A stretch of DNA of 64,000 nt from positions 434,001 through 498,000 of the forward strand of contig NZ_CP069513.1 in assembly GCF_016889425.1 (NCBI RefSeq), read 5' to 3'. Source of the stretch: Corynebacterium amycolatum. GTDB taxonomy: Bacteria > Actinomycetota > Actinomycetes > Mycobacteriales > Mycobacteriaceae. The notes under the pieces are model-generated. The model saw only the letters and a program-made list of their open reading frames with translations, was not told the origin of the DNA and did not search any database. The position numbers and the translations under genes were made by a program. Position 1 is the stretch's first letter, and each line of letters opens with the position of its first letter. Below, piece by piece: positions 11,203 to 63,285 of the stretch.

Positions 11203-12030
11203 GATGTGCCGTTCCTGTTCTCAGTGTTGTAGACGAAATGTCTGGACAATGCCGATGCTATAGCCGCCACAGGCAACCTGCAGCGTGGCTAGGAGTACAT
11301 GACTGCGAGAGAGCCCCTCCAGCAGGGATTTCGTTATGAAAGTCTCTTAGAAAAACTGGATTACAGACTTGATGTGCTTTTCTTCCCCGGCATCACGGAG
11401 AGCTCTGTAATTTCTAGATTATCCCTGCTTGACAGCAGGATATGACCTCTCATTTTCCCGTTCTGACATCACGAACGAACCCCACGTGCCAGCCGTTTGC
11501 TAACAAATTCGACAACTTTGTATAACGAGTGGCAACTTACAGCGAGATTCCACGTTTCAGCGGTGTGTTAATGCCGACTACGATCAGAACTCGCGTGAGC
11601 TGCGATCTCGTTGCCGCGCTTGACGACGGCGACAGTGCCAGCGGCAACTCTGCTGCTGGTTAGTGCAGCTGTTTAGCCATGCTCCCCCGATAGGCGTTGA
11701 CCTTTCTTCTACCCCATTTTTAGAACGCTATCGCGCATGATTGCTCAGTTCGGCGTAGGTTTTGCCTTAACTGATAGTTTTATACATTTCCTTATATTCG
11801 CGATACGAAACGGGTATATAAACTGCCCAGCACGCATAAGTTCCATCTTTTTCGACGAGATTAGCTTCGTTTTTACGCATCTTTAAGATGATTGGACGCT
11901 CACCATGCGCGTTCGTATTCGCCCTCTAGGAAACCCAACCAGAGGAAATGCTTTTCAATGTGCGGCCTGAAAACGCCACAACCAGTTTTTGGGCCGCCAC
12001 CGACCAACTCACTGAGGAGCAGATTTCCCC
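11203..12030. other. Long non-coding stretch between Asp23 operon and protease
   Basis: This 828-base stretch has no intact gene. It must hold the minus-strand promoter of the Asp23 operon (right of 11202) and the plus-strand promoter of the protease (left of 12031; ACGGGTATATAAACTG at about 11808-11823 contains a TATATA that could be a -10). It includes a decayed copy of the sigC 3' end at 11600-11682. The parts around 11340-11560 and 11740-11900 are AT-rich relative to the surroundings. Confidence 0.5.
11600..11682 (+). pseudogene. Decayed duplicate of the sigC 3' end
   Basis: From about 11600 the sequence follows sigC 8210-8262 closely. Both contain GACGGCGACAGTG and GTTGCCGC at matching spacing, with about 45 of 53 positions identical by eye. 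After a short insertion CAGCTGTTTAG recurs, which is the sigC stop region. No sigma region 2 or start codon precedes it, so this is only a tail remnant. It lies in the same orientation as sigC, on the other side of the Asp23 operon, so the operon is bracketed by direct copies of the sigC end. Confidence 0.75.
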
Positions 12031-12663
12031 ATGAATAGACCTTCATGGATTTTCACTGTCACTGCCATTATCACGGCTACAACCGGACTACCGGCCTACG
12101 CGGCCACCATCAACCAAGGCGATCCAGTTGTCATCATTCACGCTGATGGACCGCAAGCTAGTGTCTGTACAGCCGGCTATGTCGACAAGACCAACTCTCA
12201 GATCTACACAGCAGGTCATTGTGGGCAAGAAGGAGACACGGTGACGGATGGGACCTTTCAGAAAATTGGAGTATTCCAACCGTCTCCCACCTATGACCAT
12301 TCACTAGATACAGGGAACGACATTGGAGTTGTCTCGCTTGACGACCCCGCTACTGCCGGTGAGAATTCGTATTCGGGCGATTCGACTCTATCCCCCACAG
12401 ATGTTCAAACTGGCGAGACGGTCTGCATTTACGGAAACACTACGGGGAGAGTTTCCTGCGGTTTAGCCGCTGATCGAGAGGCATACCAAATCGAGGACAA
12501 CGCTCTACAGGTTCAGAACGTACACGCTCAACGCGGCGATTCCGGTGGCCCTGTATGGGTTCCGGAAAAAGGTGCTGTTGGCGTTGTATCGACTAATTGG
12601 AACATCATCGATGGGAACGGGCAGCAGCTTGGCTCCTATATCACCGCTAATTCACCCTGGTAA
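12031..12663 (+). CDS. Secreted trypsin-like serine protease (S1 family)
   Basis: The 210-residue product has a Sec signal peptide (about 1-25, cleavage near AYA-AT) and the chymotrypsin-fold triad: His in TAGHC (about residue 69), Asp in NDIGVV (about 101) and Ser in GDSGGP (about 172). Cysteines lie near the His and in the body. The protein is compact with no anchor, so it is probably released. It lies at the edge of the pilus region and faces the tip adhesin gene across a shared terminator. The substrate is unknown; processing of surface proteins is only a contextual possibility. Confidence 0.88.
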   Translation: MNRPSWIFTVTAIITATTGLPAYAATINQGDPVVIIHADGPQASVCTAGYVDKTNSQIYTAGHCGQEGDTVTDGTFQKIGVFQPSPTYDHSLDTGNDIGVVSLDDPATAGENSYSGDSTLSPTDVQTGETVCIYGNTTGRVSCGLAADREAYQIEDNALQVQNVHAQRGDSGGPVWVPEKGAVGVVSTNWNIIDGNGQQLGSYITANSPW

Positions 12664-12727
12664 GAGGGCTTTGTTTGCGTAGGGCTTCCTGATGGGTGGG
12701 ACGCGAGTCTTGTTCTTTGTGCTGCCC

Positions 12728-12763
12728 AATGGGTTCTGTGCAGGCGACTGCACAGAACCCATT
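12728..12763. terminator. Convergent terminator, protease / pilus operon
   Basis: A perfect 16-bp stem, AATGGGTTCTGTGCAG and its complement, with a GCGA tetraloop lies between the protease stop and the adhesin stop. T-rich sequence flanks it on the plus side (CTTGTTATT), and it likely serves both directions. Confidence 0.88.
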
Positions 12764-12770
12764 CTTGTTA

Positions 12771-16915: not shown

Positions 16916-17945
16916 TGTCGTTTTCCCACCACGAAGTGTTGTTATTATCCTCGGACGCTGATTCGCTGCCGTCAGCGAGTCCATCGCTGTCTGCGTCGCC
17001 ATCAGCAGTCTCGACGTCCGCGTTCTCGGCGTCGTCGTCAAGCTCTTCGTCGGCGTCGAGGCGCTGGCGCCAGAGCCACCACGCAAAGCCCGTACCAAGC
17101 ACAAGTACCGCTACAAGCAGGGCGTACATCCACCACTGCCATCCAGCTCCGTGCGTTTGGTCGAAGATTTTGCTTTCCGACGGATCCATCGGCACTTGGT
17201 GCCCACGCACTAGCAAACGATGCGTGTTAATTCCGTAAGGAGTGCAAGTGATGAGGGTGATGTAGTCCTGGCCTTCAACGGGACGAAGATCATCGGTCTC
17301 ATGCGGAAGTACAACCTTGATTTGATCAATCTCGTACTTCAGCTTGTGACCAGCGACCTGGATATAGAAGGCGTCTCCCTCTTTTGCTTTCCGCAGGTTA
17401 TCGAAGAGCGTTACGTTAGTAAGTCCGGTGTGACCGGTAATGATGGAGTGGGTTCCAACACCGCCGACTGGAAGATCGGACCCGTATAGGTGTCCGAGCC
17501 CCTTGGCGAGCACCTCATCGCTGGTGCCGTGGTAAATCGGCAGATCGGCCTGAATCTCTGGGAAGATCAAACGCGCCATCACATCCGTAGCGTTTAGCTG
17601 ATCGAGATAAGCGGCGTACTCGGGGTTGTGGTCATTAACTTCGTTAAGCCACGGGTCCAGAATCGGGCCGGTGGTCTGGCGCTCATTGTAAGAATGAGCG
17701 CGTTCCCACTGTTCATCTTTAACTTCTTGGGGTACGGACTTTTCCAACTTGGCGAACTCTTTAGCCGCCTTAGAGGTGCCGTAGTTGTTCAATGCCGTGG
17801 AGACAACCGGGTACAGCATCACAAGCAAACCCACAATCACCAGAATTGCGGGGAGAACCATACTGTTCTTCTTCGCCTGCTCAGGCTGATCAGGCTGGTC
17901 AGCTGATGCGTCCCGCGTCAGCGTCGACGCAGAGTGTTTACCCAC
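16908..17945 (-). CDS. Pilus-specific class C sortase
   Basis: The 345-residue enzyme has an N-terminal membrane helix (about 29-50), a lid segment with DPW (GPILDPWLNE), the catalytic His in ITGHTG, Cys in TLITCTPYGINTHRL with the Arg shortly after, and a second C-terminal helix followed by an acidic tail. The two-helix topology and lid define class C, which polymerises pilins through a pilin-motif Lys and the LPxTG Thr. The start is GTG with GGGAG 7 bases upstream. It lies between the major and minor pilin genes, as in spa operons. Confidence 0.93.
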   Translation of the reverse strand: MGKHSASTLTRDASADQPDQPEQAKKNSMVLPAILVIVGLLVMLYPVVSTALNNYGTSKAAKEFAKLEKSVPQEVKDEQWERAHSYNERQTTGPILDPWLNEVNDHNPEYAAYLDQLNATDVMARLIFPEIQADLPIYHGTSDEVLAKGLGHLYGSDLPVGGVGTHSIITGHTGLTNVTLFDNLRKAKEGDAFYIQVAGHKLKYEIDQIKVVLPHETDDLRPVEGQDYITLITCTPYGINTHRLLVRGHQVPMDPSESKIFDQTHGAGWQWWMYALLVAVLVLGTGFAWWLWRQRLDADEELDDDAENADVETADGDADSDGLADGSESASEDNNNTSWWENDNE

Positions 17946-19775: not shown

Positions 19776-20447
19776 GAAAACAGGTCCTTTACAGAAGTCC
19801 AAAATGAAGCGACACGCTTCAATACGTCTCGCGATTCACTTCAGACGGCGACATCGATATTCCCCGACCGCACAAAACTGAGAGTTCCCTTAAAGGAAAG
19901 ACCAGTCCGCCTAACCTTCTAAGCTTAAGCATCATGAACTTTTATGTTTATATTTATAAACATTCCAGCTCAGGCCCATTGCTCGTTCGGTTAACAACGC
20001 TCAGTGAACCGCTTATAAATAACTTAACCTGTTCAGCGCTTAGCCAACACTCGACGCAAACACGCCGCCAAGCCGGAACGCACGGAAAACTTATACAAAA
20101 GTAAGAATTATCGAAGATTGGTATCGCTTTTATAGAGGTCACAACGACTTTTTCCAATCAGCCCAAAACATTCTCGAATCCCCACAGAATCCACCCACCC
20201 CCACAACCGGGGGCAGCCAAATGACCCATGTCGATTACCTCTATGGGAAACCGTCATCTCCCCAGTACATCCCAGGAAAATGGGGACTTATCAACCTTCT
20301 CGAATTTGTTGCCACGACAACGTCGTCAAGCGAAAGCAAAAGCCGTTTGCAGCAAACCGCCCCGCGACGCACCGCCCTGTGCTAGGACCTGTAAAAGCAC
20401 AAAGGAAGTGAGCGACACGGGGCGCCCTACCGCGTCACTTAAGACGT
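19776..20447. other. Non-coding region upstream of the pilin operon
   Basis: This region holds the pilus operon promoter. The part at 19925-20120 is AT-rich and includes an inverted repeat at 19945-19962. I found no supportable gene. A 44-codon open frame near 20280 is basic (KRKQK) but has no ribosome site. The part at 20200-20440 is richer in G+C and contains one copy of the repeated GTCGTCAAGC word. Confidence 0.5.
19945..19962. promoter_or_regulatory. Perfect inverted repeat in the pilin promoter region
   Basis: TGTTTATA-TT-TATAAACA is an 18-bp perfect dyad, 170 bases upstream of the pilin start, in an AT-rich stretch. Its symmetry and position suit a dimeric regulator's operator over a promoter. 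No regulator gene is adjacent, so the binder is unknown. Confidence 0.5.
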
Positions 20448-21748: not shown

Positions 21749-24700
21749 TTAGTTCGTAGCTACCGTCGGCAGAGCGTGAGTAGCCAAACCGGTCGGGCCA
21801 GACGGAACCGAACTAATTGCACGTCGTTCCGAGTTCGGAGCCAACGGCTTTCCATGGTTCTTCTGCTTGTCCTGGCCAGTGCCACCAATGACAGTGACGT
21901 TGGTGTTGTACTGCTCCGAATGCTGATTAATCACAGTGTTCGGGGTGGCAGCATCGCTGGTGGGTGCGGAGGAATCGTCGTTAGGCGTATTCTGCTCGCC
22001 CTCACCCTTGGGCTGCTCAGCAGGCGTGTTCTCTGGGGTCTTGCCATTCGTGACAGTCTGCTCCGCAGAGTTGATGTCCTTGTGAACAGCAACTTCCTTG
22101 CCATTAGCATCGGTCAGAGTCTCGAATGCAACCTGAGAAGCGCAATCGGCGTCAGTGATGATGATCGGAACATCAACCGTGCCTGCGGATGCCGTCGGCA
22201 CAAAGTGCAGGCGGCTCCTAGCACCAGTGGACTTGCCCGTCTCCTTGCACATCAACTCACCGGTCAGGGTGTACTTCGTGCCCGGCTTCAGGCCAGTGAA
22301 GTGCACGGTGTCGATGACGACAGCACCCTTTTCAATCAGACCCTTGCCAGCAATACCGGCAGTAGTCGTGATAGCCGGGTTGTCCTCAGACTGCGCTGGG
22401 GTGCTCGGGTGGCTTGGCTTGGACGGCTTGCTCGGCTTCTCTGGCTGGGCAGGCTTGGACGGCTTGCTCGGCTTCTCTGGCTGGGCAGGCTTGGACGGCT
22501 TGCTCGGCTTCTCTGGCTGAGCAGGCTTAGTCGGCTTGCTTGGCTTTTCCGGCTGGGCAGGCTTCGTCGGCTTAGTCGGCTTGCTCGGCTTCTCCGGCTG
22601 GGCAGGCTTAGTCGGCTTGCTCGGCTTCTCCGGCTGGGCAGGCTTAGTCGGCTTGCTCGGCTTCTCCGGGTGAGCCGGCTTGGACGGCTTCTCGGACTCA
22701 GACTTAGACGGAGTTGTCGTCTCAGACGGCTCTTCCGGCTGTGTCGTCTCTGGCTGCTCGGAAGGCTCATCCTCGCTCGGAGTTACCGGAACGGTGGACG
22801 TGGTCGGCTCAGTCGAGCTGGTTTCCGGTGTGGTCGTTTCCTCGGACGGAGTTTCGCTTTCCTCAGTCGGGGTGTCTTCCGGCTTCTCCGGAACCTCGCC
22901 AGTCACGGTCTGGTTTGCGTCGTTGATATCTGCGTGGTCAGCGATCTCATTGACCTGACCAGCGCTTTCTTTACCAGTCGAGTCAACCTCATCAGAGGTC
23001 AGGTGCTCGAATACGACAGCCTCAGCAACAGGAGTCTTAACAGAGTCAGACACCTCGAGAGTGACAGTCACCGTACCGCTTGCGGAAGTCGGCTTGAACG
23101 TCGCCTCGCCATGACCAATCACAGAGCCATCAGCCTTGTTAACCAGTTCACCGGACAGGGTGTAATTCTTACCAGGCACCAGACCCTCGAAATGTACGGT
23201 GTCGATGACCTTGGCATTGGCCTCAATGCGGTTGCCCTGAAGCTCGGCTACCGTGCGCAGCTCCGGCTCCAGCGGTGTATCAGCGGGCTCGCTCGGCTTA
23301 GACGGTTCGGTGGCCTCAGTCGGCTCGGTCGGCTCCGTGGTCTGCGACTCAGTGCTGTCAGTCGGCTCGGTCGACTCCGTCGGGGCAGCCGGCTTCGTGG
23401 ACTCGGAGGCGTTAGGAGTAGTCGTCGAAGAGCTCGGCTGCTCTTCGCTTTCCGACGTCGTCGGAGCCTCAGATTCGCTGGTCTCAGAGGTAGCGGTCTC
23501 GCTGGACGACGGCTCCGTTGTCTCCTCGGTTGTCTCCTCGCTCGTCGGAGTCTCTTCGGAGGTCGACGGCTGCTCTGGCTTTTCGCCGTGAACGGTCTGA
23601 GCTGCGTCGTTAATGTCCTCGTGGGAAGCGATTTCTACCGGCTGACCATCAGTGTTGTCCTGGCCATCGGCGGTGACCTCTGTCGAAGTCAGCTTTTCAA
23701 ATGCAACAGCAGCGGAAACCGGCTCATCCACATCATCGGAGACGGTCATCATGACAGCCTGCTCACCCGAAGAGGTCTCCGGAGTGAACTCGACGCTGCC
23801 GGTGCCCAGAATGCGGTCAGCATTGGTCTTGTCCACCAGGGTGGCGTCCAGGCGGTAGTTCTTACCCGGCACCAGGTCGGTGAACCTCACGATGTCCTTA
23901 ACCACAGCGCCCGCAACGATCTTGTTGCCGTTCAGGCGAGCCTGAGTGGAAATCGACGGCTTTAGCGTGGTCGGCTTCTCCGGCTCAGACGGCTTGGTCG
24001 ACTCGGACGGAGTCGTGGTCTCAGCAGGCGTGGTCGGAGTAGTCGGCTTCTCTGGCTCGGTTGGCTTTTCTGGCTCAGATGGCTTCGTCGGCTCAGCTGG
24101 AACCTCACCGGAAGACGGAGTGACATTGTCAATCACAATGATGTCTTGCTTCTCACCATTGTTGAAAATGTAGCCAGTGCGGTTCGTACCGTCGACGGTG
24201 CCCTGACCGACGTTAGCCGGACCAGTCAGGTAGTCGTAGACAGCCTTCGTCGATGGGTTGTGAATGCCCTGGGAGAAGTCAATGTCATCGGAGAAGTGCC
24301 ACAGAGCGAACTGAGTTGCGTTATTGGCATCCAGCACATTCAGGCGTCCTTTAACTCCAGCTGCCTTCCCCAGTTCATCCAAACCAACAGCTGGCGAACC
24401 GTGGTGCGCAATCCAGTTGAGCTTCCGGTATCGGTCAAAGTCGTTCCGCAGCTTGTTATTGGTATCTGTACTGCGCGAAAACTGACTGAAGTTCTGCACA
24501 CGACCGGTGTCATAAAGATCACCGCCGACGCTGGCCTCAATGCAGTAACCCATTTTGTGGCTACCATATGGAGTTGCGGCCTCGTCAAATGCCGCGATGA
24601 GTGGCCCAAAATTACGGACATTTCCATTGGCTTCAACACCCGCAACGGTTCCAGGAACACTCAAAATCTTCTGAATCGTCAGGGTTTCGCCAGTGTCTTC

Positions 24701-26780: not shown

Positions 26781-27830
<1,050 letters not shown>

Positions 27831-28349
27831 TTAACGTCCCGTACCAGCGTAAACAACAGCCTCAGTGTCGCCACCGAGATTGAAAGCGTCGTGCAGAGCC
27901 TTCACAGACTTATCGACATCCTGGTCATTAACCAGCACCGAGATACGAATCTCAGAAGTGGAAATCAGGTCGATATTCACACCCTCATCAGCGAGCGCCT
28001 CACAGAACGTCGCAGTCACACCCGGGTGGGACTTCATGCCAGCACCGACCAAGGAGACCTTGCCCACGTGATCGTCGTAAAGCACGTCATTCCAGTCATT
28101 GTCAGCCTGCAGCTTCTTCAGCAACGCCATCGCCTTCGGAGCGTCCTCGCGCGGGCAGGTGAAAGTAATGTCAGTGCGGTTATCCGCGATGGTAGAGACG
28201 TTCTGCAGCACCATATCGATGTTGATCTCCGCATCCGCAACAGCACGGAACATCTTCGCCGCCTGGCCCGGATCATCCGGAATGCCCAGCACGGTCACCT
28301 TCGCCTCGGAGCGGTCATGCGCCACACCGGTCAACACTGCTTCTTCCAT
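27831..28349 (-). CDS. Aspartokinase beta subunit from an internal in-frame start
   Basis: Inside lysC the sequence GGAGGATATCCCTATGG puts a strong ribosome site about 8 bases before an in-frame ATG (MEEAVLTGV). The product is 172 residues comprising the two ACT domains. In C. glutamicum aspartokinase is known to be an alpha2beta2 enzyme with the beta subunit made from such an overlapping start at this same motif. Its presence here indicates the same architecture. Confidence 0.85.
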
Positions 28350-50389: not shown

Positions 50390-51961
50390 CTACAACTTCC
50401 CCGACAGAGCATCCAGACGCTGCTTACTCGGCCCCTCCAAGCCGATAATTTCCACCTCTTTGCCCCGGTCAGCAAACTTGACCCGCACCGAATCCAATGC
50501 CGCCACCGTGGAAGCATCCCAAATTTCGGCCTCCGACATGTCGATCACAATGCGCTGCGCAGGGTCGGTGTAGTCGAACTGGTACACCAGGTCGTTACTG
50601 GAGGCGAAGAACAGCTGACCCCGCACCTTGTACGTCCGGGAGTGGGCGCTGGGGTCGTCGTCAAGCACTTCGATCCTGACCAGGTGAGCGACACGGCGCG
50701 CGAACATCAGCGACGCCACGACCACACCCGAAACTACGCCGATGGCGAGGTTATCCGTCGCCAGCGTGGCGATGACCGTCACCAGCATCACCACCGTCTC
50801 CGAACGCGGCATCAGGCGCAATGTCCGCGGGGAAATCGAGCGCCAATCGACCGTGTCCACCGACACCACGACCATCACCGCAACCAGCGCCGCCATCGGA
50901 ATCGCACCGACTGCGGAACTGAGCAGAAGGACCAGAATGAGCAGGAAGACGCCGGAAAAGAGCGTCGTCAAGCGAGTGCGTCCCGACGATTCCTTCACAC
51001 CCACCATCGTCTGACCAATCATCGCGCAGCCAGCGATACCGCCGAAGAAACCGCCCGCGATATTCGCGACACCGAGTCCCCACGTCTCACGGGTCTTGTC
51101 CGAATGCGTGTCGGTGATGTCGTCCACGAGCTTCGCCGTCATCAGCGATTCCATGATGCCGACAATCGCCACGCCCACCGCATACGGCGCAATCAGCTGC
51201 AGAGTCTCCCAGGTCAGGGGCACATTCGGAATCAGCAGCTGCGGGAGAGATTCCGGGAGCTCACCCATATCGCTCACGTTCGGCACGCGCCAATCCGCCA
51301 ACACCGCAACAAGCGTGACGACGAGCACAGTTACCAGCGGAGCCGGAATCGCGGTGAACACGCGGGGCAGGAACACCATAATTGCAATACCCAGAGCGAC
51401 CAGCGGATACACCAGCCACGGCACATCGATGAGATGCTCCAGCTGCGCGGTGAAAATGAGGATGCCCAGCGCGTTGACAAAGCCAATCATGACCGCACGC
51501 GGAATGAAACGCTGCAGCTTAGCGATCCCCAACGCCGCAAAAGCAATCTGCAACACGCCCGCGAGCAACACCGTCGGGATGAGGTAATCCATCCCGTACG
51601 TCCGCGACAACGGCGCGACGACGAGCGCAACCGAACCAGCGGCAGCGGTAATCATGGCCGGGCGACCACCCGTGAAGGCAATCACGATGGCCATAATCAC
51701 CGAGCTAAACAGCCCCACCGCCGGGTCCACGCCCGCCAAGATGGAAAACGAAATGACCTCGGGGATCAGCGCGAACGACACCGCTGCGCCAGCCAGCAGC
51801 TCGGTGCGCAGGCGCTTCGGTGAAGAAACTGCGAACCGGAAGGAATCCCACACGCCCATTGGCGCTGGGACTTCTCGGGCCTGTGGCTGTTGTGGTTCTG
51901 GAGTTTCTAGCGGTTCTCGTGTTGCCTGCGGTGGCACTCGCATGTCGTTGGCATCGCTCAT
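50390..51961 (-). CDS. SulP-family anion transporter with STAS domain
   Basis: I chose the ATG at 51961 (GGAAG upstream). The 523-residue product has 11-12 membrane segments after a hydrophilic Pro-rich N-terminus (about 1-35), the SulP signature region SFSILAGVDPAVGLFSSVIMAIV, and a C-terminal STAS domain (about 435-515) with VIDMSEAEIWDASTVAAL. SulP proteins carry sulfate, bicarbonate or similar anions; the substrate cannot be decided. It lies alone with ffs upstream. Confidence 0.9.
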   Translation of the reverse strand: MSDANDMRVPPQATREPLETPEPQQPQAREVPAPMGVWDSFRFAVSSPKRLRTELLAGAAVSFALIPEVISFSILAGVDPAVGLFSSVIMAIVIAFTGGRPAMITAAAGSVALVVAPLSRTYGMDYLIPTVLLAGVLQIAFAALGIAKLQRFIPRAVMIGFVNALGILIFTAQLEHLIDVPWLVYPLVALGIAIMVFLPRVFTAIPAPLVTVLVVTLVAVLADWRVPNVSDMGELPESLPQLLIPNVPLTWETLQLIAPYAVGVAIVGIMESLMTAKLVDDITDTHSDKTRETWGLGVANIAGGFFGGIAGCAMIGQTMVGVKESSGRTRLTTLFSGVFLLILVLLLSSAVGAIPMAALVAVMVVVSVDTVDWRSISPRTLRLMPRSETVVMLVTVIATLATDNLAIGVVSGVVVASLMFARRVAHLVRIEVLDDDPSAHSRTYKVRGQLFFASSNDLVYQFDYTDPAQRIVIDMSEAEIWDASTVAALDSVRVKFADRGKEVEIIGLEGPSKQRLDALSGKL

Positions 51962-52339: not shown

Positions 52340-53497
52340 TTAGTCTTGGTTCTTAGCCTTCAACGCCAAGTTCTCACCTGACTCAGAATCAAAGACATTC
52401 AACTTGTCCGTGTTGATGGCCAACGTAATCTTCTGACCTCGACGCACATTCGACTCCGCATCGACTCGAGCCACCAACATGGCATGCGGGTTATCCGCCA
52501 GGCCAGCCTCCTCAGCTGCGGCATGACCCTTCAAATCAATTTCCGGGAGTGGGAAGTGGATGAACTGCTCGGAGCCCATCGCCTCCAGGACGGACACCTC
52601 GACCTCGACCGTTGGTGCATCGCAATTGTCGTCGGTCAGGGCGGCGTCTTCGAAAGCCTCTGGTCGTAAGCCGACGATAGCCTTCCGGCCCGGGGCAAAT
52701 TTTTCCGGGAGTGGCAGGTGGCCCAGGGCGGTGTCGACGCTGTGGCCGTCGTCAAGCACAGTGGCAGGCAGGAAGTTCATGGCGGGCGAGCCGATGAAGC
52801 CGGCGACGAAGACGTTGACCGGTCGGTGGTAGAGCTCTTGCGGAGCGCCAATTTGCTGGATAACGCCCTTTTTCAGCACGACGACGCGGTCGCCCAACGT
52901 CATGGCCTCAGTTTGATCGTGGGTGACGTAGACAGTGGTGGTGCTGAGGCGTTCCTGCAGCTGGGCAATTTCGGTGCGCATCTGGACGCGGAGCTTGGCG
53001 TCCAGGTTTGAGAGCGGCTCGTCCATGAGGAAGACCTTCGGTCGGCGGACGATGGCGCGGCCCATCGCCACGCGCTGACGCTGACCACCCGAGAGATGCG
53101 CGGGCTTGCGGTCGAGGAACTCCGTCAGATCGAGAATTTCGGCGGCCTCGTTGACCTTCTTCTCGATCTCCTTCTTCGGCAGTTTTGCCAGCTTGAGCGG
53201 GAAAGCGATGTTCTCGCGGACGTTCATGTGCGGGTACAGCGCGTAGGACTGAAACACCATGGCGATATCACGGTCCTTCGGAGCGACATCGTTCATGCGC
53301 TCGCCGTCGATGAGCAGGTCACCTTCGGAGATGTCCTCCAGCCCTGCAATCATGTTCAGCATCGTCGACTTACCGCAACCGGAGGGGCCGACGAGGATGA
53401 TGAACTCGCCGTCGTCGATTTTGAGATTCGCGTCTTCCACACCGATGTGACCATCAGGAAAGCGCTTGTACACGTGCTTTAGTTCAATTTCAGCCAT
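52340..53497 (-). CDS. Sugar ABC importer ATP-binding protein (UgpC/SugC/MsmK type)
   Basis: The 385-residue ATPase has Walker A GPSGCGKSTML (about 37-47), Q-loop VFQSYALYPHMNVRENIAFPL, signature LSGGQRQRVAMGRAI, Walker B VFLMDEPLSNLDAKLR, switch His and a C-terminal TOBE/OB regulatory part (about 240-380). The long C-terminal part marks the MalK/UgpC/SugC subfamily of carbohydrate importers. It is the last gene of the four-gene operon, 18 bases after the second permease. Confidence 0.93.
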   Translation of the reverse strand: MAEIELKHVYKRFPDGHIGVEDANLKIDDGEFIILVGPSGCGKSTMLNMIAGLEDISEGDLLIDGERMNDVAPKDRDIAMVFQSYALYPHMNVRENIAFPLKLAKLPKKEIEKKVNEAAEILDLTEFLDRKPAHLSGGQRQRVAMGRAIVRRPKVFLMDEPLSNLDAKLRVQMRTEIAQLQERLSTTTVYVTHDQTEAMTLGDRVVVLKKGVIQQIGAPQELYHRPVNVFVAGFIGSPAMNFLPATVLDDGHSVDTALGHLPLPEKFAPGRKAIVGLRPEAFEDAALTDDNCDAPTVEVEVSVLEAMGSEQFIHFPLPEIDLKGHAAAEEAGLADNPHAMLVARVDAESNVRRGQKITLAINTDKLNVFDSESGENLALKAKNQD

Positions 53498-54367: not shown

Positions 54368-55285
54368 CTAATTATTCTTGCCCGTGGCCGCGCCTGGCGA
54401 CGAGGCCCCGAAGCCCTTGACGAACACAATTGCAATCAGCGCCACGCACACGAAGATCAACACCGAAATTGCTGAACCAATACCCAGGTTGAACGCCTTA
54501 AACAGGTTGTTGTAACCCAGAATCGACACCGAACCAGTGCCATTATTGCCCTTGGTCAGAATGTAGATGTTGTCGAACACTCGGAAAGCATCCAGAGTGC
54601 GGAACAGCAGAGCCACCACAATCGATGGCTTCATCAGCGGCAACGTGATCCTGAAAAAGCGCTGCCAGAAACCCGCACCATCCAACTCGGCCGCCTTCAG
54701 CGCGTCGTCAGGCACCAGCGCCAGACCCGCAAGAAGCAGCAGCGCCATGAATGGAGTCGTCTTCCAAATTTCAGCGCCGATAATGATAAATATCGACGGC
54801 CATTGCTCCGTCAGCGGCGCGGTGCCGTCGGGAAGCAAATTAGCGAGATACCCCGTCCCCGGCGTCCACGCGTAATTCCACGAGTACGCCGCCGCCACCG
54901 TGACGATGCCGTACGGAATCAACACCACCGTGCGGATCAGGCCGCGGCCGAAAATCGCGCGGTACATCACCATCGCGATAGCCATGCCAAGCACCAGTTC
55001 AACCGCCACCGAAACCAGCGTGATAAACGCCGTCACGCCCAGCGCTTCCCACCAATAACTGCTGGTCAACACGGATGCGTAGTTCTGCAGGCCGATAAAC
55101 TCGCGGTCATCGGGGAAACGCAGGTCATAGCGCTGCAGCGACAGCCAAATCGCGTACCCAATGGGGTACGCCGTCACCGCCAGCATCAAAATCAGCGCAG
55201 GAGCCACCAACAGCAGACCGAGGCGACGCTCGGCGCGGCGCCCGTCGGAAAGCGCAGACTTAGTTTTCGTAGATTTATCAGACAT
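54368..55285 (-). CDS. Sugar ABC importer permease (MalF/SugA type)
   Basis: The 305-residue product has a basic N-terminus, six membrane segments and the EAA loop (LKAAELDGAGFWQRFFRITLPLMKPS, about 213-238). It starts one base after the binding-protein stop, so translation is coupled. Together with the second permease it forms the membrane channel of the importer. SugA/MalF-like order is binding protein, F, G, ATPase, as here. Confidence 0.92.
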   Translation of the reverse strand: MSDKSTKTKSALSDGRRAERRLGLLLVAPALILMLAVTAYPIGYAIWLSLQRYDLRFPDDREFIGLQNYASVLTSSYWWEALGVTAFITLVSVAVELVLGMAIAMVMYRAIFGRGLIRTVVLIPYGIVTVAAAYSWNYAWTPGTGYLANLLPDGTAPLTEQWPSIFIIIGAEIWKTTPFMALLLLAGLALVPDDALKAAELDGAGFWQRFFRITLPLMKPSIVVALLFRTLDAFRVFDNIYILTKGNNGTGSVSILGYNNLFKAFNLGIGSAISVLIFVCVALIAIVFVKGFGASSPGAATGKNN

Positions 55286-57203: not shown

Positions 57204-57691
57204 CCCACTAGACCCGCCCGGCGCGCCGGGCTGATACCGGGGCGTAGGGGAAATTGTCGCGCGGTGCACCTATACCCCGCCCCTGCCGTGGTTTAGCCCG
57301 GTGCGCGTAGGCTCTAGCGTCTCGCTAGGCGATAGACGGTGTGCCCCGCCCAAAACTCTGCAAAACCCCTGTTCACAAATCACTTCTAAAGCGTTGAACG
57401 ATAAGCGCACATACCTAAGTAGCCCCCAAGCGCTTAAAACGAGCCACAGCGCTCTTTTGTTTCTGGACTATATACCGCGCGCGCGTGCGCCCGGGAACGA
57501 GTTGGGCACGTGACAGTTTCATCAATGTTGGACGGGTTAGGACTTATCCCCGGCTGGTGTTGTCGTGTTTTTCAGTGGAGAATTTTGCAAAACACTGAGA
57601 TTGGAAGATAAGCCCCTAGATACCGTCTCTGAACTGCAATAATGCAGCGTATTCAGTGGTTGAGATTCGCTAAGATTGCTGAGATAAACCC
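57204..57691. other. Non-coding region left of the primase gene
   Basis: About 490 bases without a supportable gene. The left part is GC-rich with a run of CCGGCGCGCCGGGC dyad character at about 57218-57231, and TATACC at about 57271 and TATATACC at about 57470 are possible promoters. The right part holds iteron-like repeats (57595-57695). It may contain the element's origin. Confidence 0.5.
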
Positions 57692-57695
57692 CTAA
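57595..57695. repeat. Iteron-like repeats left of the primase gene
   Basis: CTGAGATTGG (57595-57604), TTGAGATTCG (57660-57669) and GCTGAGATAAACCCC (from 57678) repeat a TGAGAT core. Each is followed by a GATAAGCCCCT or GATAAACCCCT-like sequence, and TTCAGTGG precedes two of them. The inverse form CCAATCTCAG recurs on the right side of the primase gene. Iterons beside a P4-type primase suggest a replication origin. Confidence 0.7.
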
Positions 57696-59221
57696 TTCAG
57701 CTGTAGCTGTGCGGGGTGACCGGCTTTTTCGTCTCGTGGTTGCATGTTGGGTTTGTCGCCCCTGCGCGCCTGTGCGTTTCGAGCACGCTCCGCGTTGTCG
57801 CTGTGGGTCGTGCGATAGGTGGCGAACTGTGCTGTGAACTTCACGCCCGAGACACAGCGCCAACTCTTTCCGTCATCGTCTTTAGGTTTGGAGACTTCAT
57901 AGTCCAATTGGGCACAGCGCCCTTCGATGCCGTTGAGAGTCTTTTCCTCCCGTGGAACCTTAGTGATTCCCTGCCTTGTGAGGTATGCGTCGAGTGCGGT
58001 TCTAATGTCTTGCACACTCAGCACATGCTCAATGCCAGCAGCTTCCAGCGCTTCGCTGTAGAACTCTGAAACGGCTGACCCTGCAATCCGCAGTTGGTCC
58101 ATGACGTAGCCATGTTGTTCCGGTTCAGTGAATGTTCCTTGCTTTTCGAGGTCTGCCAGCCCATCGAGGGCGCGGTTAAAAATGCCGGGCATTTCCGCCG
58201 CGATACGCCGCCCCAGGTCGCTATCTTCTTTGCCCCTAAATGAGATAGGCAGGTACACGCCAATGAACCTGTTTTGGGCAACCCCGGCAATATCGTAAAT
58301 AGGGATTGCAGTATTGGAGCAGACCATCACCCGCGAATGGAGCCGAACGGTGCGTTCATCTTTGCCTTTACCCTCCACGGTCACCCGATCATTGCCAATA
58401 ACCTGCAACAGGATCTCAGCGAGCTTGCGGGGGTCGTTGACGCTGCGGACATCGGAAAACGCCACCAGGCTTTTACCCTCCCACTGCTTTGTAGAGAACT
58501 GCCCCACGTCTCCGCGTGGTGCCGCCGTGTTAGATTCCCCAACCAATGCCGCGCATACATCTGCGAACGTTGACTTACCCGAGCGGGTTGCACCCATCAA
58601 GTACACACCCTTTTGCAGGTCCGTCCGCCCGGATACGAGATAGCCGAGCCACTGCAGTAGGAACCTCTTCGTTTGTGGCAGGCCCTCCGTTATCGAGTCC
58701 AGGTAGCTATCGAACGTTGGGCACGTAGCTTCGGGTTGGTAGTCGAACGGAAGTCGCCACTCATTACCAAACCGAGGAGACCAGTCCAGCAGTTCCCCCG
58801 TGTCCACGTCGTACATGCCATTAGCCATACCAATATAGCGCTGCGAGGTTTCCAGATCCTGCTCTTCATACGGGTGGAGCTGCCCCATGCCGTCAACGAG
58901 TGCGACTACCTTAGACGCCGACCACTCTAGGGACTGCTGCTCTTCCCGCTCCTGCGGATCATCGAGCGCCGACCCTGCGCCCCCGCCCGTCAAGGGTGGC
59001 CGAATCGCGCGGACACGGGCATTAACAAGCCGGTTGGCTAGTACTGATTCCGCGCGACTGCGACGACAGTCAGCCCAAACCCCATCAGACCACAAGTAAT
59101 AATCCCCGCACTCCTTGCGGAACAGAGTGGCGTACCCATCAACCTTAAAAACCTGCCGGTAGAGTACATCGGCATTATCGAGACTGGTAGACGAGCTGAA
59201 CACATACAGTTTTTCTTGCAT
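57692..59221 (-). CDS. P4-family primase / superfamily 3 helicase (D5-like)
   Basis: The 509-residue product has a D5_N-like region (about 120-200, with a start in SQRYIGMANGMYDVDTGELLDW) and an SF3 helicase (about 200-360) with Walker A GATRSGKSTF, a motif B LVAFSDVRS and motif C VMVCSNTAIP. A Toprim primase domain is not visible, so the N-terminal 120 residues may hold a diverged primase or none. Such proteins start replication of phage satellites and integrative plasmids. Iterons lie on both sides of the gene. Confidence 0.88.
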   Translation of the reverse strand: MQEKLYVFSSSTSLDNADVLYRQVFKVDGYATLFRKECGDYYLWSDGVWADCRRSRAESVLANRLVNARVRAIRPPLTGGGAGSALDDPQEREEQQSLEWSASKVVALVDGMGQLHPYEEQDLETSQRYIGMANGMYDVDTGELLDWSPRFGNEWRLPFDYQPEATCPTFDSYLDSITEGLPQTKRFLLQWLGYLVSGRTDLQKGVYLMGATRSGKSTFADVCAALVGESNTAAPRGDVGQFSTKQWEGKSLVAFSDVRSVNDPRKLAEILLQVIGNDRVTVEGKGKDERTVRLHSRVMVCSNTAIPIYDIAGVAQNRFIGVYLPISFRGKEDSDLGRRIAAEMPGIFNRALDGLADLEKQGTFTEPEQHGYVMDQLRIAGSAVSEFYSEALEAAGIEHVLSVQDIRTALDAYLTRQGITKVPREEKTLNGIEGRCAQLDYEVSKPKDDDGKSWRCVSGVKFTAQFATYRTTHSDNAERARNAQARRGDKPNMQPRDEKAGHPAQLQLN

Positions 59222-59228
59222 TTCAACC

Positions 59229-59316
59229 CCCCAATCTCAGCCAATCTCAATACGGAATTGAGACATATTAAAGCAGGTCAAAGCGTATAAATAACCCCAA
59301 TCTCTAATCTCAGTGA
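59229..59316. repeat. Iteron-like repeats right of the primase gene
   Basis: CCAATCTCAG and CCAATCTCAA stand in tandem (59231-59250), followed by AATTGAGAC and by CCCAATCTCTAATCTCAG (59296-59313). These are the reverse complement of the CTGAGATTGG unit on the left side of the primase gene. They lie in the primase 5' region and could bind the primase and repress it or open the origin. Confidence 0.72.
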
Positions 59317-59343
59317 CATGTAGATATTTTTCAAAAGGGCTTA

Positions 59344-59931
59344 TCATACTGCCACCTCTTTCCAGTCTTTGAGCGTCTCTGCGAGCCGGTTCCCGGCCAA
59401 CATCGCGTATTTAAGATCTCCGGTGTTCAAGTAGTCGGTAAGGTATTCCCGAACGTTGTTAATCGACTGGAATTTGTGTTGCTGCTTCAACTCCTTTACG
59501 GCGCGGTCGATTAGCGCTGTTTCCGCCATTCCATACGGCACGGCTGGGGAAAACAGTTGATTGCCGGTGATACGTCGCCACACCTGCGTTCCGGCGCGTT
59601 CCTGCTGTTCCTGTAGCCATTGACCGACCTCCACCATGTCCACACGGTCTAACGGTTTACCGCTCTTTACGAGGGCATGGGCGCGCTTGGAAATGTCTAG
59701 GTATGCCAGCTTGTAGAGCGCGGGAAAATGCTGCGCGTTAAGTTTGTGCTGATTGATTACGTACACGGTCATTTCAGCAGTGCAGGACGCTAGTAGCGCT
59801 AAGGCTTCTTCCGCTAACGTTTCCCAAACCATAGGCTTTACCGGCGGGGATACGCTATAATTGCTACGCGCACCTTTTAGCTCTTTATTTAGCCCCCGGG
59901 TTTCCCAACCGGGGGTTTTTGCTGTGGTCAC
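59344..59931 (-). CDS. DnaB N-terminal-domain-like protein of the element
   Basis: The 195-residue product starts at the GTG 59931, which overlaps the upstream stop (TAGTGA) and has GGGGAG 8 bases before it. Residues 36-112 (EEALALLASCTAEM..., FPALYKLAYLDISKRAHALVKSGKPLDRVDMVEVGQWL) follow the helical pattern of the N-terminal domain of replicative helicase DnaB. The helicase domain itself is absent. It may contact the host replisome. A GC hairpin with a T-run on the plus strand lies in its 5' coding part (59892-59918). Confidence 0.55.
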   Translation of the reverse strand: MTTAKTPGWETRGLNKELKGARSNYSVSPPVKPMVWETLAEEALALLASCTAEMTVYVINQHKLNAQHFPALYKLAYLDISKRAHALVKSGKPLDRVDMVEVGQWLQEQQERAGTQVWRRITGNQLFSPAVPYGMAETALIDRAVKELKQQHKFQSINNVREYLTDYLNTGDLKYAMLAGNRLAETLKDWKEVAV

Positions 59932-60632
59932 TAGCTAATCTCCCCCTCGCCCTGGTCTGCCAGAATCTCCGTGATAACCTCAGCGAGCCAGTACAGATCT
60001 TCCCCGTCTAAGGGGACTGCTACGCCCTCCTTTTCCTGTGTCGTGGTCTGTACGTACACCACGGCCGGGGTGTCGCTACGCTGCCAGAAATTCACGGCGT
60101 TACCGGTGTCGTGCGTGGTCACGGCGCCTAGCAGTTCGCTTGTGACAGGCTCTACGAACCCGAAACGTTCGAGCTGGTCGCGTGGTGTCCATGAGTCGTA
60201 AAACCCGCCCGGCTGAGTGTTGCCCTGGCTGCGTCGCTTTTCTTCGCGGCATTGGCGCCGGGCTAGGTATTCGTCGGCGCCGAATAGTTCCCAATCGCGG
60301 ACTTTCGGGACGTTAGGGAGCTGCCGGCGGTGGCGGCGGCTTAGTAGCAGTTCGGTGGTGTTGCCGTAGGTTCCGGTGTCTAGGCCGATTTGCCATGCGA
60401 TGCCATTACGAACTGGTGAGCCTGGTTTGTGGCTGCATGTGTGGCACCACTGATAGGCGGTTAGGTGCTGCTCGATCAGTTCGTCAGCGGGCTATTCGCC
60501 GGTTAGATCCTCGTATGCGCGTAGATCGTCGCTGAGGGCTTGCAGGTTGATTGTGTCCGGTTCTGCTTTGAGATCGGTGCCGGTAGTTGTGTTGTATCCG
60601 GCGCTGGTTGCGATTTTCTTGATATTGATCAC
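59931..60632 (-). pseudogene. Element gene split by an in-frame amber codon (unknown)
   Basis: From the GTG at 60632 (CGGAGA about 7 bases upstream) the frame reads 46 codons (INIKKIATSAG ... AYEDLTGE), meets TAG at 60494-60492, and then stays open without a stop or usable start for about 187 codons to 59931. The second part has a CxxC (WCHTC), a basic stretch and the end ILADQGEGEIS. No ribosome site and no ATG is available just after the TAG, so this looks like one 233-codon gene interrupted by an amber codon rather than two genes. Function unknown; CxxC hints at metal or nucleic acid binding. Confidence 0.75.
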
Positions 60633-60666
60633 GATGGTTCTCCGTATCTGTGTGGTTGCGGTTGTC

Positions 60667-60846
60667 TTATGCGGCGTTTGCTTTGACGTGCGCTTGCATA
60701 GAGTCGCGGTTGATGCGGAGCTGTCGTTTCGTGATGTAGCTAGCTTCGATTTTTCCGTCACGAACGAGGTTGTAGACGGTTGTTTTAGTTAGGCCGTATT
60801 CGTTCGCAATTTCGGAAACTTTAACCCATTTAGATGATGTTTCCAC
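60667..60846 (-). CDS. Excisionase-like helix-turn-helix protein
   Basis: GTG at 60846 opens a 59-codon frame that fits the helix-turn-helix class: WVKVSEIANEYGLTKTTVYN (helix-turn-helix), LVRDGKIEASYITKRQLRIN. This is the DNA-binding-domain, excisionase-family layout found beside integrases of small elements, such as AlpA in P4. A weak purine-rich ribosome site (AAGAAAGAGAG) precedes it. It likely controls the integrase or excision. Confidence 0.75.
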   Translation of the reverse strand: METSSKWVKVSEIANEYGLTKTTVYNLVRDGKIEASYITKRQLRINRDSMQAHVKANAA

Positions 60847-61160
60847 TTAGATTTTCTCTCTTTCTTAACTACTCGTTCTCACTCTTCCTTGTATTGCTTT
60901 GGTGGCTGTAGCTGGCTCTAAGTGGGGTGATCATCCAAACGGGTCGCTACCCCCTTACGTGGTGGGCACGCACTGAATCGAAGTGATGTGTCGAAGGTAA
61001 TGACTTGTTTGGATACGACATATATTATCTTGTTTGGCCTGGTTGTGCTGGTGTCAGGTTCTCTTGACTCGCTTTATCATTAGCTGTCTCGTTTTTGCAA
61101 CACGTAATATATTGCAACATATCGCATATTATGCGTTTTTCTTGCGTTTCATCTTATGGC

Positions 61161-61200
61161 ACACAGTGGCCTACAGTGACCTACAGGGGTCTACAGGGAC
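61161..61200. repeat. Four tandem 10-bp repeats upstream of the regulator
   Basis: ACACAGTGGC, CTACAGTGAC, CTACAGGGGT and CTACAGGGAC stand in perfect 10-bp register. One helical turn spacing suits a cooperatively binding protein, such as an integrase accessory factor or a replication initiator. Confidence 0.7.
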
Positions 61201-61288
61201 TAGTTTTCACTCACCAAACAACTAAGGGAACGTGTGTTTTATTCATGGCCAGACTCGCATGCGCTTGCGAACCAGTGGGTAAGAAAAA

Positions 61289-61318
61289 CCCCGTTGTGTG
61301 ATAGACATCACAACGGGG
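61289..61318 (-). terminator. Integrase gene terminator
   Basis: CCCCGTTGTG pairs with CACAACGGGG; on the minus strand TTTTTCTTACC follows. It stands 22 bases after the integrase stop. Confidence 0.85.
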
Positions 61319-61340
61319 GGTGGGCCTTTTACTTCTCGTC

Positions 61341-62480
61341 TTACGCTACGTCTGGCACCGCAACCAACGGCATAACCATGCGGTTAGCGACCTCAACATC
61401 GCGCACCTCGGCCGCGTGCTGATAACGCAAAGCCGCTGACGTAGTTGTGTGCCCCAACCTCGCCATAGTCTCAGCCATTGTGCCGCCCGCCATAGCGAAT
61501 TGAGTACCGCCATAGTGCCGAAGAATGTGGCTATGGATATTGTCATGTCCCAGCGCTTCGTGACATGCGGCCTTGAGCATTCGATTAAAGCGGCGACGGT
61601 CTACCCAGTCCCCTTCTTTGTTCGGGAACAGTAAACCGTCACGCCCCGCCCCTGCATAGGTGCCAATGTGCTGTTCAAGTGCAGGAACGATTGCGGCGGG
61701 TACTGTGACCCAACGATCCTGTTTGGTCTTCGTAAACGGCACCACAACCTTTCCGCTTTTCCCTTTAGCTTCACGGACTTGTCGGCATACGTGGACTTTC
61801 ATAACCCCTGTAGCCGAGTCCCTACGCACGTCTTTTCGGCGAAGTTCCGCCCATTCGCCAATGCGTAGCGCGCACACGGCTGCGACCATTGTGGGGACTC
61901 GATACCGTTCGGGGACTGCGGCAACTAGCTTGGCGAACTCCTGTGCCGTGGGGATCTCCTGCTCTTTTTTGGCAGACGGTCGCGTAGACGCTCCTGGGAT
62001 GTTCACGGGGCTGACTTGGACAAGTTCATCTTCAACCGCTTGGGAGAAGATCGTTTTAAGCAGGCTATAAACGTCCCTATTCCGCTTTTTACGGTCTTTA
62101 TTGGCCTTGACCATGCTGTCATACCATTTGCGTACTTCGGCGCGTGTAATCGCCGCTAGGTGCATTTCTCCGAAAGTCGGCGCAATGTCGTTGGTGAACA
62201 TTGACCTGTAACCGCGTTCTGTGGTCGGTTCCCAATTCCGTTTCGTTGGCAGGGTCTCGAAATACTCAGCGACCGTTAGCCCGGTGCGCTTCTTTCTACC
62301 TTCTCTTTCGGCCGGCGGAGTCCAAACATCATCGTGGATTAATGTTAGCTCTTTGCTTCGCCAGGCTCTCGCCTGCTCCATGTTAGGAAAAGTCTTGTAG
62401 TAAGTCCGGCCTTTGTGTTGGTAGCGTGCCCGGACGTTTCCAGACGGCAGGGGGGTAAGCCCCTTTGTTCTGCGTGCCAT
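61341..62480 (-). CDS. Tyrosine-type site-specific integrase
   Basis: I chose the ATG at 62480 (MARRTKGLTPL), AAAGG upstream. The 379-residue product has an N-terminal arm-binding part (about 1-60), a SAM-like core-binding domain (about 70-165) and a catalytic domain with the first Arg in CALRIGEWAEL, His-x-x-Arg in HSHILRHYGGT, His in LGHTTT and the nucleophile Tyr in ALRYQHAAE. All key residues are present, so it is probably functional. It lies at the tRNA end of the element and inserts into the tRNA-Ser 3' end. Confidence 0.93.
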   Translation of the reverse strand: MARRTKGLTPLPSGNVRARYQHKGRTYYKTFPNMEQARAWRSKELTLIHDDVWTPPAEREGRKKRTGLTVAEYFETLPTKRNWEPTTERGYRSMFTNDIAPTFGEMHLAAITRAEVRKWYDSMVKANKDRKKRNRDVYSLLKTIFSQAVEDELVQVSPVNIPGASTRPSAKKEQEIPTAQEFAKLVAAVPERYRVPTMVAAVCALRIGEWAELRRKDVRRDSATGVMKVHVCRQVREAKGKSGKVVVPFTKTKQDRWVTVPAAIVPALEQHIGTYAGAGRDGLLFPNKEGDWVDRRRFNRMLKAACHEALGHDNIHSHILRHYGGTQFAMAGGTMAETMARLGHTTTSAALRYQHAAEVRDVEVANRMVMPLVAVPDVA

Positions 62481-62516
62481 TAAAGGTGAAAACCTTTCGC
62501 GTGCGTGCCCACCGCC

Positions 62517-62539
62517 GCGTGACAGCTTTTCGTGACAGT
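62517..62539. repeat. Right arm-type site (GTGACAG repeats)
   Basis: These 23 bases are identical to 56913-56935 at the left end. They include GTGACAG twice and lie just upstream of the integrase start. Confidence 0.7.
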
Positions 62540-62615
62540 TCAAACGATATCAGTTGAGACGAGTCAATACTTATTGTGTATGCTTTATGGTGCCTTACCA
62601 GCATGGATACGGGAA

Positions 62616-62645
62616 AACCCCCAGGTAGTTTTCTACCTGAGGGTT
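62616..62645 (-). terminator. Element-borne terminator after tRNA-Ser
   Basis: AACCCTCAGGTAG (minus) pairs with CTACCTGGGGGTT over AAAA and TTTT follows. It replaces the original tRNA terminator left at 56805-56832, so the element keeps the tRNA transcript terminated. Confidence 0.85.
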
Positions 62646-62651: not shown

Positions 62652-62670
62652 TGCGGAGGATGTGGGATTT
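62652..62670. other. Right attachment site core, inside tRNA-Ser
   Basis: TGCGGAGGATGTGGGATTT is the same 19-bp core as at 56838-56856, covering the tRNA acceptor 3' strand and part of the T-arm. Confidence 0.9.
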
Positions 62671-62739
62671 GAACCCACGAGGGATGTGACTCCCGCACGC
62701 GTTCCAGGCGTGTGACATAGGCCGCTAGTCGAATCCTCC
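62654..62739 (-). tRNA. tRNA-Ser(GGA)
   Basis: The gene folds with acceptor GGAGGAT/ATCCTCC, a discriminator G, an anticodon stem CACGC/GCGTG with loop CTGGAAC (anticodon GGA), a long variable arm typical of tRNA-Ser, and a T-stem GTGGG/CCCAC. CCA is not encoded. It reads UCC and UCU codons and hosts the satellite element, whose insertion preserves the tRNA. Confidence 0.95.
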
Positions 62740-62937
62740 AACGTCGTTAAAGACTACCCAACAAATCCGATTTTCCCAAAACACGCCGACGAACAGGGGA
62801 AACGTAGAATTCAAGTGGCACTATCGACACCACCAGTGCAACCAACAACCGAAAGCAAAAGACGGCACCCGACCACCGACCGCTGACCGCCGTTTCGCTT
62901 CACGACGGCCACCCCACTCCCGGAATTTTTCCGGGAG
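62740..62937. other. tRNA-Ser / csoR intergenic region
   Basis: About 200 bases without a gene. It holds the tRNA-Ser promoter (minus strand) and a hairpin at 62916-62938. Nothing else is visible. Confidence 0.5.
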
Positions 62938-62938
62938 T
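62916..62938 (-). terminator. Hairpin just after csoR
   Basis: ACTCCCGGAA-TTT-TTCCGGGAGT is a perfect 10-bp stem touching the csoR stop codon. It has no U-run, so termination is uncertain. Its arms are inverted copies of the word CCACTCCCGGAA, repeated elsewhere in the window. Confidence 0.55.
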
Positions 62939-63285
62939 TACTTAGCCAGCCGAGCGATTGCCGCCGAGGCCTCCTCCAGCTTGGCATCCAACTCCTCCTG
63001 GCCACCCTCAGCCGCATGCACCACACAGTGATGAAGATGAGCATCCAGAAGAGTCAACGCCAACGACTTCAACGCCGAATTCACCGCCGAAATCTGGGTC
63101 AAAACATCGATACAGTACTCTTCGTTCTCAATCATCCGACCAATGCCACGAACCTGCCCCTCAATGCGACGAATACGGGACTCATAACGCCGCTTCTCCG
63201 AAAGATAACCGGGATCAGTGGTGTCATGGCAGCAAGAACCGTCGTCAAGCGAATGCGATTGAGACGAACAACAAGACTCACTCAT
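62938..63285 (-). CDS. csoR: CsoR-family metal-responsive repressor
   Basis: The 115-residue protein has a His/Cys-rich start (SESCCSSQSH...SCCHD), then the CsoR/RcnR core RRIEGQVRGIGRMIENEEYCIDVLTQI and HLHHCV, giving the Cys-His-Cys ligand set of copper sensors. It binds its operator without Cu(I) and releases it when copper is bound. It starts 3 bases after the stop of the upstream copper ATPase gene and is part of its operon. The extra Cys at the N-terminus is unusual for the family. Confidence 0.9.
   Translation of the reverse strand: MSESCCSSQSHSLDDGSCCHDTTDPGYLSEKRRYESRIRRIEGQVRGIGRMIENEEYCIDVLTQISAVNSALKSLALTLLDAHLHHCVVHAAEGGQEELDAKLEEASAAIARLAK

Follow-up and report, generated by a model that had tools for sequence, protein, structure and literature searches.

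A dispersed eleven-base word in Corynebacterium genomes, a candidate DNA uptake sequence

The word and its sites

The stretch of DNA analysed here (the window) is 64,000 nucleotides of Corynebacterium amycolatum, G000:C1:434001-498000, taken from genome G000, a single contig of 2,474,943 bases. Its genes include asd, dnaX, a murT-like gene and a gene for a class C sortase, and a short word is scattered through and between them. The initial annotation reported 14 copies of GTCGTCAAGC on both strands. All 14 are present, against 0.30 expected from dinucleotide shuffles (maximum 2 in 100 shuffles), and their coordinates are correct apart from one, which is off by one (52748 rather than 52749). 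C precedes 13 of the 14, as claimed, the exception being the copy at 12336..12345 (minus strand), which is preceded by G and is not a full motif. The word itself is real and over-represented, but it is longer and more degenerate than was stated. The full motif is CGTCG-NN-AAGC (CGTCGNNAAGC), and the window holds 34 sites rather than 13 because versions with other bases at positions 6-7 count too.

The 13 sites that read CGTCGTCAAGC lie at 11618..11628 (-, intergenic), 17033..17043 (+), 20321..20331 (+, intergenic), 41148..41158 (+), 41282..41292 (-), 43153..43163 (+, in the murT-like gene), 43667..43677 (-), 44335..44345 (+), 48521..48531 (-), 50656..50666 (+, in a sulfate-permease-family gene), 50963..50973 (+), 52747..52757 (+, in an ABC-transporter ATPase gene) and 63240..63250 (+, intergenic); "intergenic" rests here on crude gene calls. 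Five sites read CGTCGGAAAGC, at 368..378, 17172..17182, 23447..23457 and 38448..38458 on the minus strand and 55243..55253 on the plus strand. CGTCGTAAAGC is found at 28073..28083 (+), at 31621..31631 (+) and 31646..31656 (-), which form a pair within the sortase gene, at 45181..45191 (-, intergenic, adjoining dnaX) and at 48805..48815 (+). Three versions occur twice: CGTCGTGAAGC at 27386..27396 (+, in asd) and 62897..62907 (-, intergenic), CGTCGATAAGC at 33151..33161 (-) and 39374..39384 (+), and CGTCGGCAAGC at 34326..34336 (-) and 47017..47027 (+, in dnaX). The remainder are single, namely CGTCGAAAAGC at 4172..4182 (+, intergenic), CGTCGCGAAGC at 6080..6090 (-), CGTCGACAAGC at 33417..33427 (+), CGTCGAGAAGC at 35600..35610 (+) and CGTCGGGAAGC at 54826..54836 (+). 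The clustering noted earlier, with nine of the 14 GTCGTCAAGC copies at 41-53 kb, holds for that string but is mild for the full motif (12/34 sites).

The word is not confined to the window and its genome-wide count is far above expectation, so neither of the two conditions that the initial annotation named as refuting it holds. CGTCGTCAAGC occurs 306 times genome-wide (167 plus, 139 minus) and its reversed control four times (2 + 2); in a 464-kb sample of the genome 57 copies were found against 0.91 expected from a fourth-order Markov model. Counts for the full motif, again with the reversed pattern as control, are 1,539 (802/737, or one per 1.6 kb) and 68. Single-base replacement of CGTCGTCAAGC in the 464-kb sample showed positions 1-5, 8, 10 and 11 to be fixed, with 0-3 copies per change. 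C is weakly tolerated at position 9 (14 copies), and positions 6-7 are largely free, variants there being over-represented as well. Twelve spacers were tried between the two halves: CGTCG-N2-AAGC gave 293 copies in the same sample, the eleven others (0, 1, 3-11) gave 5-21, and enrichment was seen at spacer 2 only. Preferences in the flanks are lineage-specific: in G113, for example, the word is preceded by T (0.89) and in G077 by GG (0.94 and 0.88). A longer dispersed repeat or mobile element was rejected, the flanks carrying a weak, mostly codon-periodic signal, and the suggestion of a dispersed repeat is thereby left without support.

In 504 kb with crude gene calls there were 318 sites, 264 of them coding, 53 intergenic and one on an edge. 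Of the coding sites 158 are antisense in one frame, xxG CTT NNC GAC Gxx, in which the free bases share one codon, and such a bias would be expected if codon or protein usage (Leu-X-Asp) had produced the word. The 53 intergenic sites and the 106 coding sites in another frame or on the sense strand do not fit that explanation, and synonymous shuffling of 361 genes cut the 250 observed sites to a mean of 14.8 (maximum 27 in 100 shuffles), which refutes it for the bulk of the sites and makes it highly improbable overall. That the DNA word rather than the protein is conserved, as had been proposed, is strongly supported by this result, by the placement of the sites and by their retention at orthologous positions, described below.

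The spacing of sites is near random (coefficient of variation 1.08). GC skew in the stretches read places the origin within 0.62-0.74 Mb and the terminus within 1.7-1.9 Mb; in these stretches the word is present on both replichores with equal strands. With the origin so placed, the leading strand carries 182 and the lagging strand 204 of the sites in 583 kb (P 0.29), so that a polar segregation signal, another of the functions suggested, is unlikely. A 160-kb gap in the forward-strand 11-mers was considered as a mark of the terminus and rejected: it holds reverse-strand copies and full-motif sites and is not the terminus by GC skew.

Conservation, dialects and limits of occurrence

G000 sites on BLASTN-aligned DNA were compared with other words of equal base composition. 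In G093, 50 of 52 sites are retained, against 61% for the control words (binomial P 5e-9); the figures are 43/44 against 63% in G034 (P 4e-8), 38/39 against 65% in G125 (P 1e-6) and 30/34 against 23% in G177 (P 2e-15). In G177, the most diverged of these, divergence is low across about 12 bases, including the two free positions, and is higher on either side.

The spread of the word was followed in 161 Corynebacterium genomes, an even sample of a larger group. A genome was called enriched if it held 150 copies or more and its count was also three times that of the control or higher. CGTCG-NN-AAGC is enriched in 109 of the 161, with 280-1,891 copies (median 1,091) and strand sums of 58,504 forward and 58,593 reverse. 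None of 149 other genomes of the order is enriched, all being at or below about 1.6 times the control, and the exact 11-mer in 24 out-group genomes numbers 1-25 copies, mostly no more than the control (highest in G044, 25 against 8). A scan for spaced words in 80-84 kb of each of six enriched genomes put CGTCGnnAAGC or a register neighbour top in all six. Among the 21 named Corynebacterium genomes 11 are enriched, including C. silvaticum (1,122), C. aurimucosum strain DE0410 (1,179), C. hylobatis (865), C. lemuris (858) and, at a lower level, C. ulceribovis (343, control 108); the ten that are not include C. jeikeium (40) and C. kalidii (50).

In G077, which lacks the CGTCG word, the spaced-word scan gave GGCATCGGCAAGC instead. 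The corresponding dialect, CATCGNNAAGC, is present in 625-1,337 copies in ten of the 161 genomes (G006, G077, G118, G128, G134, G161, G166, G167, G174 and G176), more weakly in G097 (213) and G108 (159), and in 12-159 copies in the other 149. In nine of the ten strong dialect genomes the CGTCG form is near background (26-97 copies); G166 carries both words, the dialect 1,337 times and the CGTCG form 352 times. The dialect stands in place of the CGTCG word in 11 genomes, two of them weakly. It or a close register was the top word in seven of eight dialect genomes sampled for words, the exception being G161, where it was not at the top of the list in the 20 kb read. A tree of 21 genomes was built from four proteins, three encoded in the tad/com loci and the fourth a neighbouring helicase, with the ComEC sequence missing for three genomes. 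On it the eight sampled dialect genomes and G014, which has neither word, form one group with a split support of 1.0, so that by this tree a single switch would suffice for the dialect.

One word or the other is borne by 120 of the 161 genomes. The other 41 are near background for both, although in six of them (G065, G086, G143, G152, G155 and G183) the CGTCG form is still weakly in excess, at 1.8-4.3 times the control. In scans of 15 of the 41, covering 20-120 kb each, no other word of the same architecture stood out. Palindromic words of a different kind were met in two wordless genomes, G156 and G063. In G156 the palindrome ATGCACGTGCAT occurs eight times in 2.2 kb (L219, G156:C1, 2034-4183); the genome also has CGTCGACG, 114 times in 80 kb against 16 expected. 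Parts of a spaced word, CTAGTCnnnnnCCAGC, were met about nine times in 100 kb of wordless G033 (L146-L149, L197).

The word is sparse in DNA that is not shared. When G000 was compared with the syntenic part of G093 (84 kb), the shared DNA held 45 sites in 70.7 kb and the unshared DNA two in 13.3 kb (P 0.01, a small sample). One window segment without a counterpart in the part of G093 read, 57438..62633, contains a D5_N/DUF5906 primase-helicase gene and no motif site, where about three are expected at the genome rate; for this primase no Corynebacterium record appeared among the best 30 of 554 and of 62 in comparisons with phages and plasmids. The reverse comparison of G093 with G000 gave 37 sites in 65 kb called unshared, a figure that was discarded as uninformative, since a large share of the corresponding G000 DNA lay outside the comparison. 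Plasmid pET44827 of C. aurimucosum ATCC 700975 has no sites in 29 kb, against about 11 expected at the C. aurimucosum genome rate. A single site was met in each of two phages, P1201 of C. glutamicum (50 kb) and BFK20 of Brevibacterium flavum (42.9 kb), which is weak evidence, as it depends on whether these hosts carry the word themselves. A different string, TTGCTGTCTT, is repeated 15 times in the 50 kb of P1201 (L216).

These observations bear on the functions that the word might have. First among the rivals that remain to an uptake function is a Chi-like signal for recombination hot spots, which a corynebacterial enzyme of end resection, for instance AdnAB, would recognise. The high density, the wide spread and the rarity in phage and plasmid DNA fit such a signal too, and Chi sequences are themselves dispersed, over-represented words that differ between lineages. 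The known ones are 5-8 bases long, however, which is shorter than nine fixed bases in eleven, and the leading-strand polarity of Chi and of FtsK orienting polar sequences (KOPS) is not seen (182 against 204). The RecC family (PF04257) had no match in any of the 161 genomes, in a search that had a positive E. coli control and had AdnAB and AddAB outside its scope. We regard a Chi-like signal as unlikely.

Ranked next is a site for chromosome organisation or for a nucleoid protein, distributed over the whole chromosome. The presence of the word on both replichores with equal strands, and the strong conservation of the places it occupies, would be expected of such a site. Against it, the word is dispensable, being near background in 41 of the 161 genomes of the genus, it has been rewritten as a whole in the dialect group, and few sites are found in unshared segments; this explanation is unlikely. 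The last of the three is a recognition site for a DNA methylase or a defence system that marks self-DNA. A mark of that kind would be carried on both strands and be rare in unshared, plasmid and phage DNA, as is observed. Nine fixed bases nevertheless exceed the methylase sites known to us, and we know of no methylase or defence system whose own site is some 20-fold over-represented, so that a methylation mark appears very unlikely.

Transformation genes and the case for uptake

Genes for transformation are nearly universal in the genus. Matches to ComEC and to DprA were found in all 161 genomes, to the T2SSE family (TadA) in 158 (155 over the cut-off) and to prepilin peptidase in 159 (151 over the cut-off). 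Flp and two small pilin-like genes are present in each of the 21 genomes whose tad locus was read; the comEA-comEC region was read in 19. The transformation apparatus of Micrococcus luteus includes Flp pili made by tad genes, and strains that have lost comEC no longer transform; in Actinobacteria tad genes are said to co-occur frequently with ComEA/ComEC (cited passages of PMC4322843).

Judging from sequence comparisons, CGTCGNNAAGC and its dialect CATCGNNAAGC probably serve Corynebacterium as its DNA uptake sequence, marking self-DNA throughout the genome. Of the functions put forward in the initial annotation this is the best fit. The word has the profile of an uptake sequence because it has nine fixed bases once in 1.6 kb, is strand-neutral, lies in coding and non-coding DNA and in tolerant codons, and is conserved in place; because it is sparse in unshared DNA, has a dialect in one group and is absent in others; and because the transformation genes are near-universal.

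From this profile we infer recognition of the word, uptake of the DNA that carries it and a receptor, which might work together as follows. Word-bearing DNA would first be bound by a receptor on the cell surface, for which a minor Tad/Flp pilin or ComEA is the likeliest candidate. The pilus would draw the bound DNA through the envelope, which in Corynebacterium is a mycolate envelope, ComEA/ComEC would bring one strand into the cell, and DprA/RecA would recombine it. With word-bearing fragments entering preferentially, biased recombination would let the word build up in shared genes wherever it does no harm, while in alien DNA, as a consequence of the same bias, it would stay rare. A change in the specificity of the receptor would lead to the word being rewritten across a lineage as a dialect.

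The systems for comparison are the DNA uptake sequence (DUS) and the uptake signal sequence (USS), and uptake sequences are stated in the cited passages of PMC12616744 to be known only in Neisseriaceae and Pasteurellaceae. CGTCG-NN-AAGC agrees with both in being a short, non-palindromic word (they are about 9-12 nt) at about one copy per 1-2 kb without strand preference. It agrees also in dialects that follow phylogeny, here with one apparent switch on the 21-genome tree; in a type IV filament with ComEA/ComEC and DprA, though these are found equally in wordless genomes; and in rarity in recently acquired mobile DNA, as judged from small samples. The Neisseriaceae DUS likewise is a short many-copy word with dialects able to differ by a single base. 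Two of them occur at once in one genome, S. muelleri (cited passages of PMC3630211), as two words do here in G166. The DUS is served by a pilus and ComEC (cited passages of PMC12616744), a machinery known in Corynebacterium from its genes. The Corynebacterium word differs from the DUS in its unrelated sequence, its internal NN, its lack of an excess of close pairs and its occurrence in Actinomycetota with a Tad/Flp pilus. The Pasteurellaceae USS (AAGTGCGGT) is of similar length and density, with about 1,300 copies in H. influenzae according to the cited passages of PMC5217627. Its sequence too is unrelated, and its pairs are often terminators, as the same passages describe for Haemophilus, whereas close pairs of the Corynebacterium word are not in excess. 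A likeness within the same phylum is Micrococcus luteus, in which transformation is by a Tad/Flp pilus with tad genes and comEA/comEC; the main text of PMC4322843 does not contain the phrase 'uptake sequence', and its cited passages report no DNA specificity.

Several observations weigh against uptake. The 41 genomes without either word have the same genes as those with it (ComEC and DprA in 41/41, T2SSE in 40/41). Among the word-bearers, the drafts G136 and G142 (95 and 53% complete) have no T2SSE match, G021, G099 and G116 have a weak one only, and G082 and the dialect genome G161 (99% complete) have no prepilin-peptidase match. None of the genes for ComEC, T2SSE, DprA and prepilin peptidase, by being there or not, discriminates among the 161 genomes, and they were therefore rejected as the cause of the word; the machinery would permit uptake and does not explain where the word occurs. 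No gene was found whose presence tracks the word, and alignments of Flp, TadE, TadF and ComEA gave no clear dialect determinant or receptor. Two columns in TadE and five in ComEA have dialect-specific residues, and were set aside as inseparable from shared ancestry. Genes of unusual codon use are not depleted (0.79, 0.62, 0.67 and 0.55 sites/kb from lowest to highest codon score), which counts against the simplest expectation for alien genes. Sites are not enriched between genes, the 53 of 318 comparing with about 19.5% of the 504 kb called intergenic. The frequent close inverted pairs at gene ends that are typical of DUS and USS, though not defining, are missing, and spacings below 50 bp in any orientation number six against 9.6 expected. 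Versions with one mismatch outside positions 6, 7 and 9 number only 0-3 each in 464 kb, a footprint sharper than uptake drive alone would lead one to expect. Finally, no report of natural transformation in Corynebacterium was found among the matches listed from the full-text literature.

In spite of these points, we lean slightly towards the further view that the word belongs to a third, independently evolved uptake-sequence system, the first outside Proteobacteria and one run by a Tad/Flp pilus, in which the dialects would hinder genetic exchange from one species group to another. Neither an uptake sequence nor this word was reported for Corynebacterium among the matches listed, as judged by title and the start of the abstract in a coverage that excludes preprints and most subscription journals, and among the matches listed for the string GTCGTCAAGC none is on Corynebacterium by title. 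For C. aurimucosum, C. jeikeium and C. urealyticum, which were among the species it covered, a study of spaced motifs reports CRISPR-derived pairs (cited passages of PMC5217627).

If an uptake function is correct, this would be the third origin of self-specific DNA uptake, in a phylum for which we found no report of it, and the species of about three quarters of the sampled Corynebacterium genomes (120/161) would prefer the DNA of their relatives. The origin, spread and dialect switching of uptake sequences would become testable, a receptor could be hunted in a Tad pilus, and there would be consequences for gene exchange in the genus as well as a way into the genetics of species that transform poorly. 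Even with another function, a genus-wide, dialect-bearing word of 11 bases at about 1,500 copies calls for explanation.

Other features of the window

A pilus island occupies 12771-24850 and encodes surface proteins of LPXTG major-pilin-like and VaFE-repeat type. Inside the gene for the VaFE-repeat protein of 1,033 amino acids there are six closely spaced copies of CCGAGCAAGCC on the minus strand (22425-22660). The class C sortase gene lies further on, at 30917-31948.

A second word, (T)TCCGGGAGTGG, is bound to the locus. Nine copies are found at 42600-63988 of the window, and the 20 kb that follow hold six copies of the 10-base core of the word, so that the cluster, which runs to G000:C1:503801 (L259), has 15 in 27 kb, on both strands and with genes included. 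There are none in 440 kb of other G000 stretches and none in L260-L262. The word is clustered likewise in the syntenic region of G034 (13, L206), G093 (11, L198 and L199), G125 (6, L210) and G177 (5, L213), and single copies occur in a few unrelated loci. The G000 cluster lies about 120-260 kb from the origin placed by skew and may be regulatory or serve a local nucleoprotein structure.

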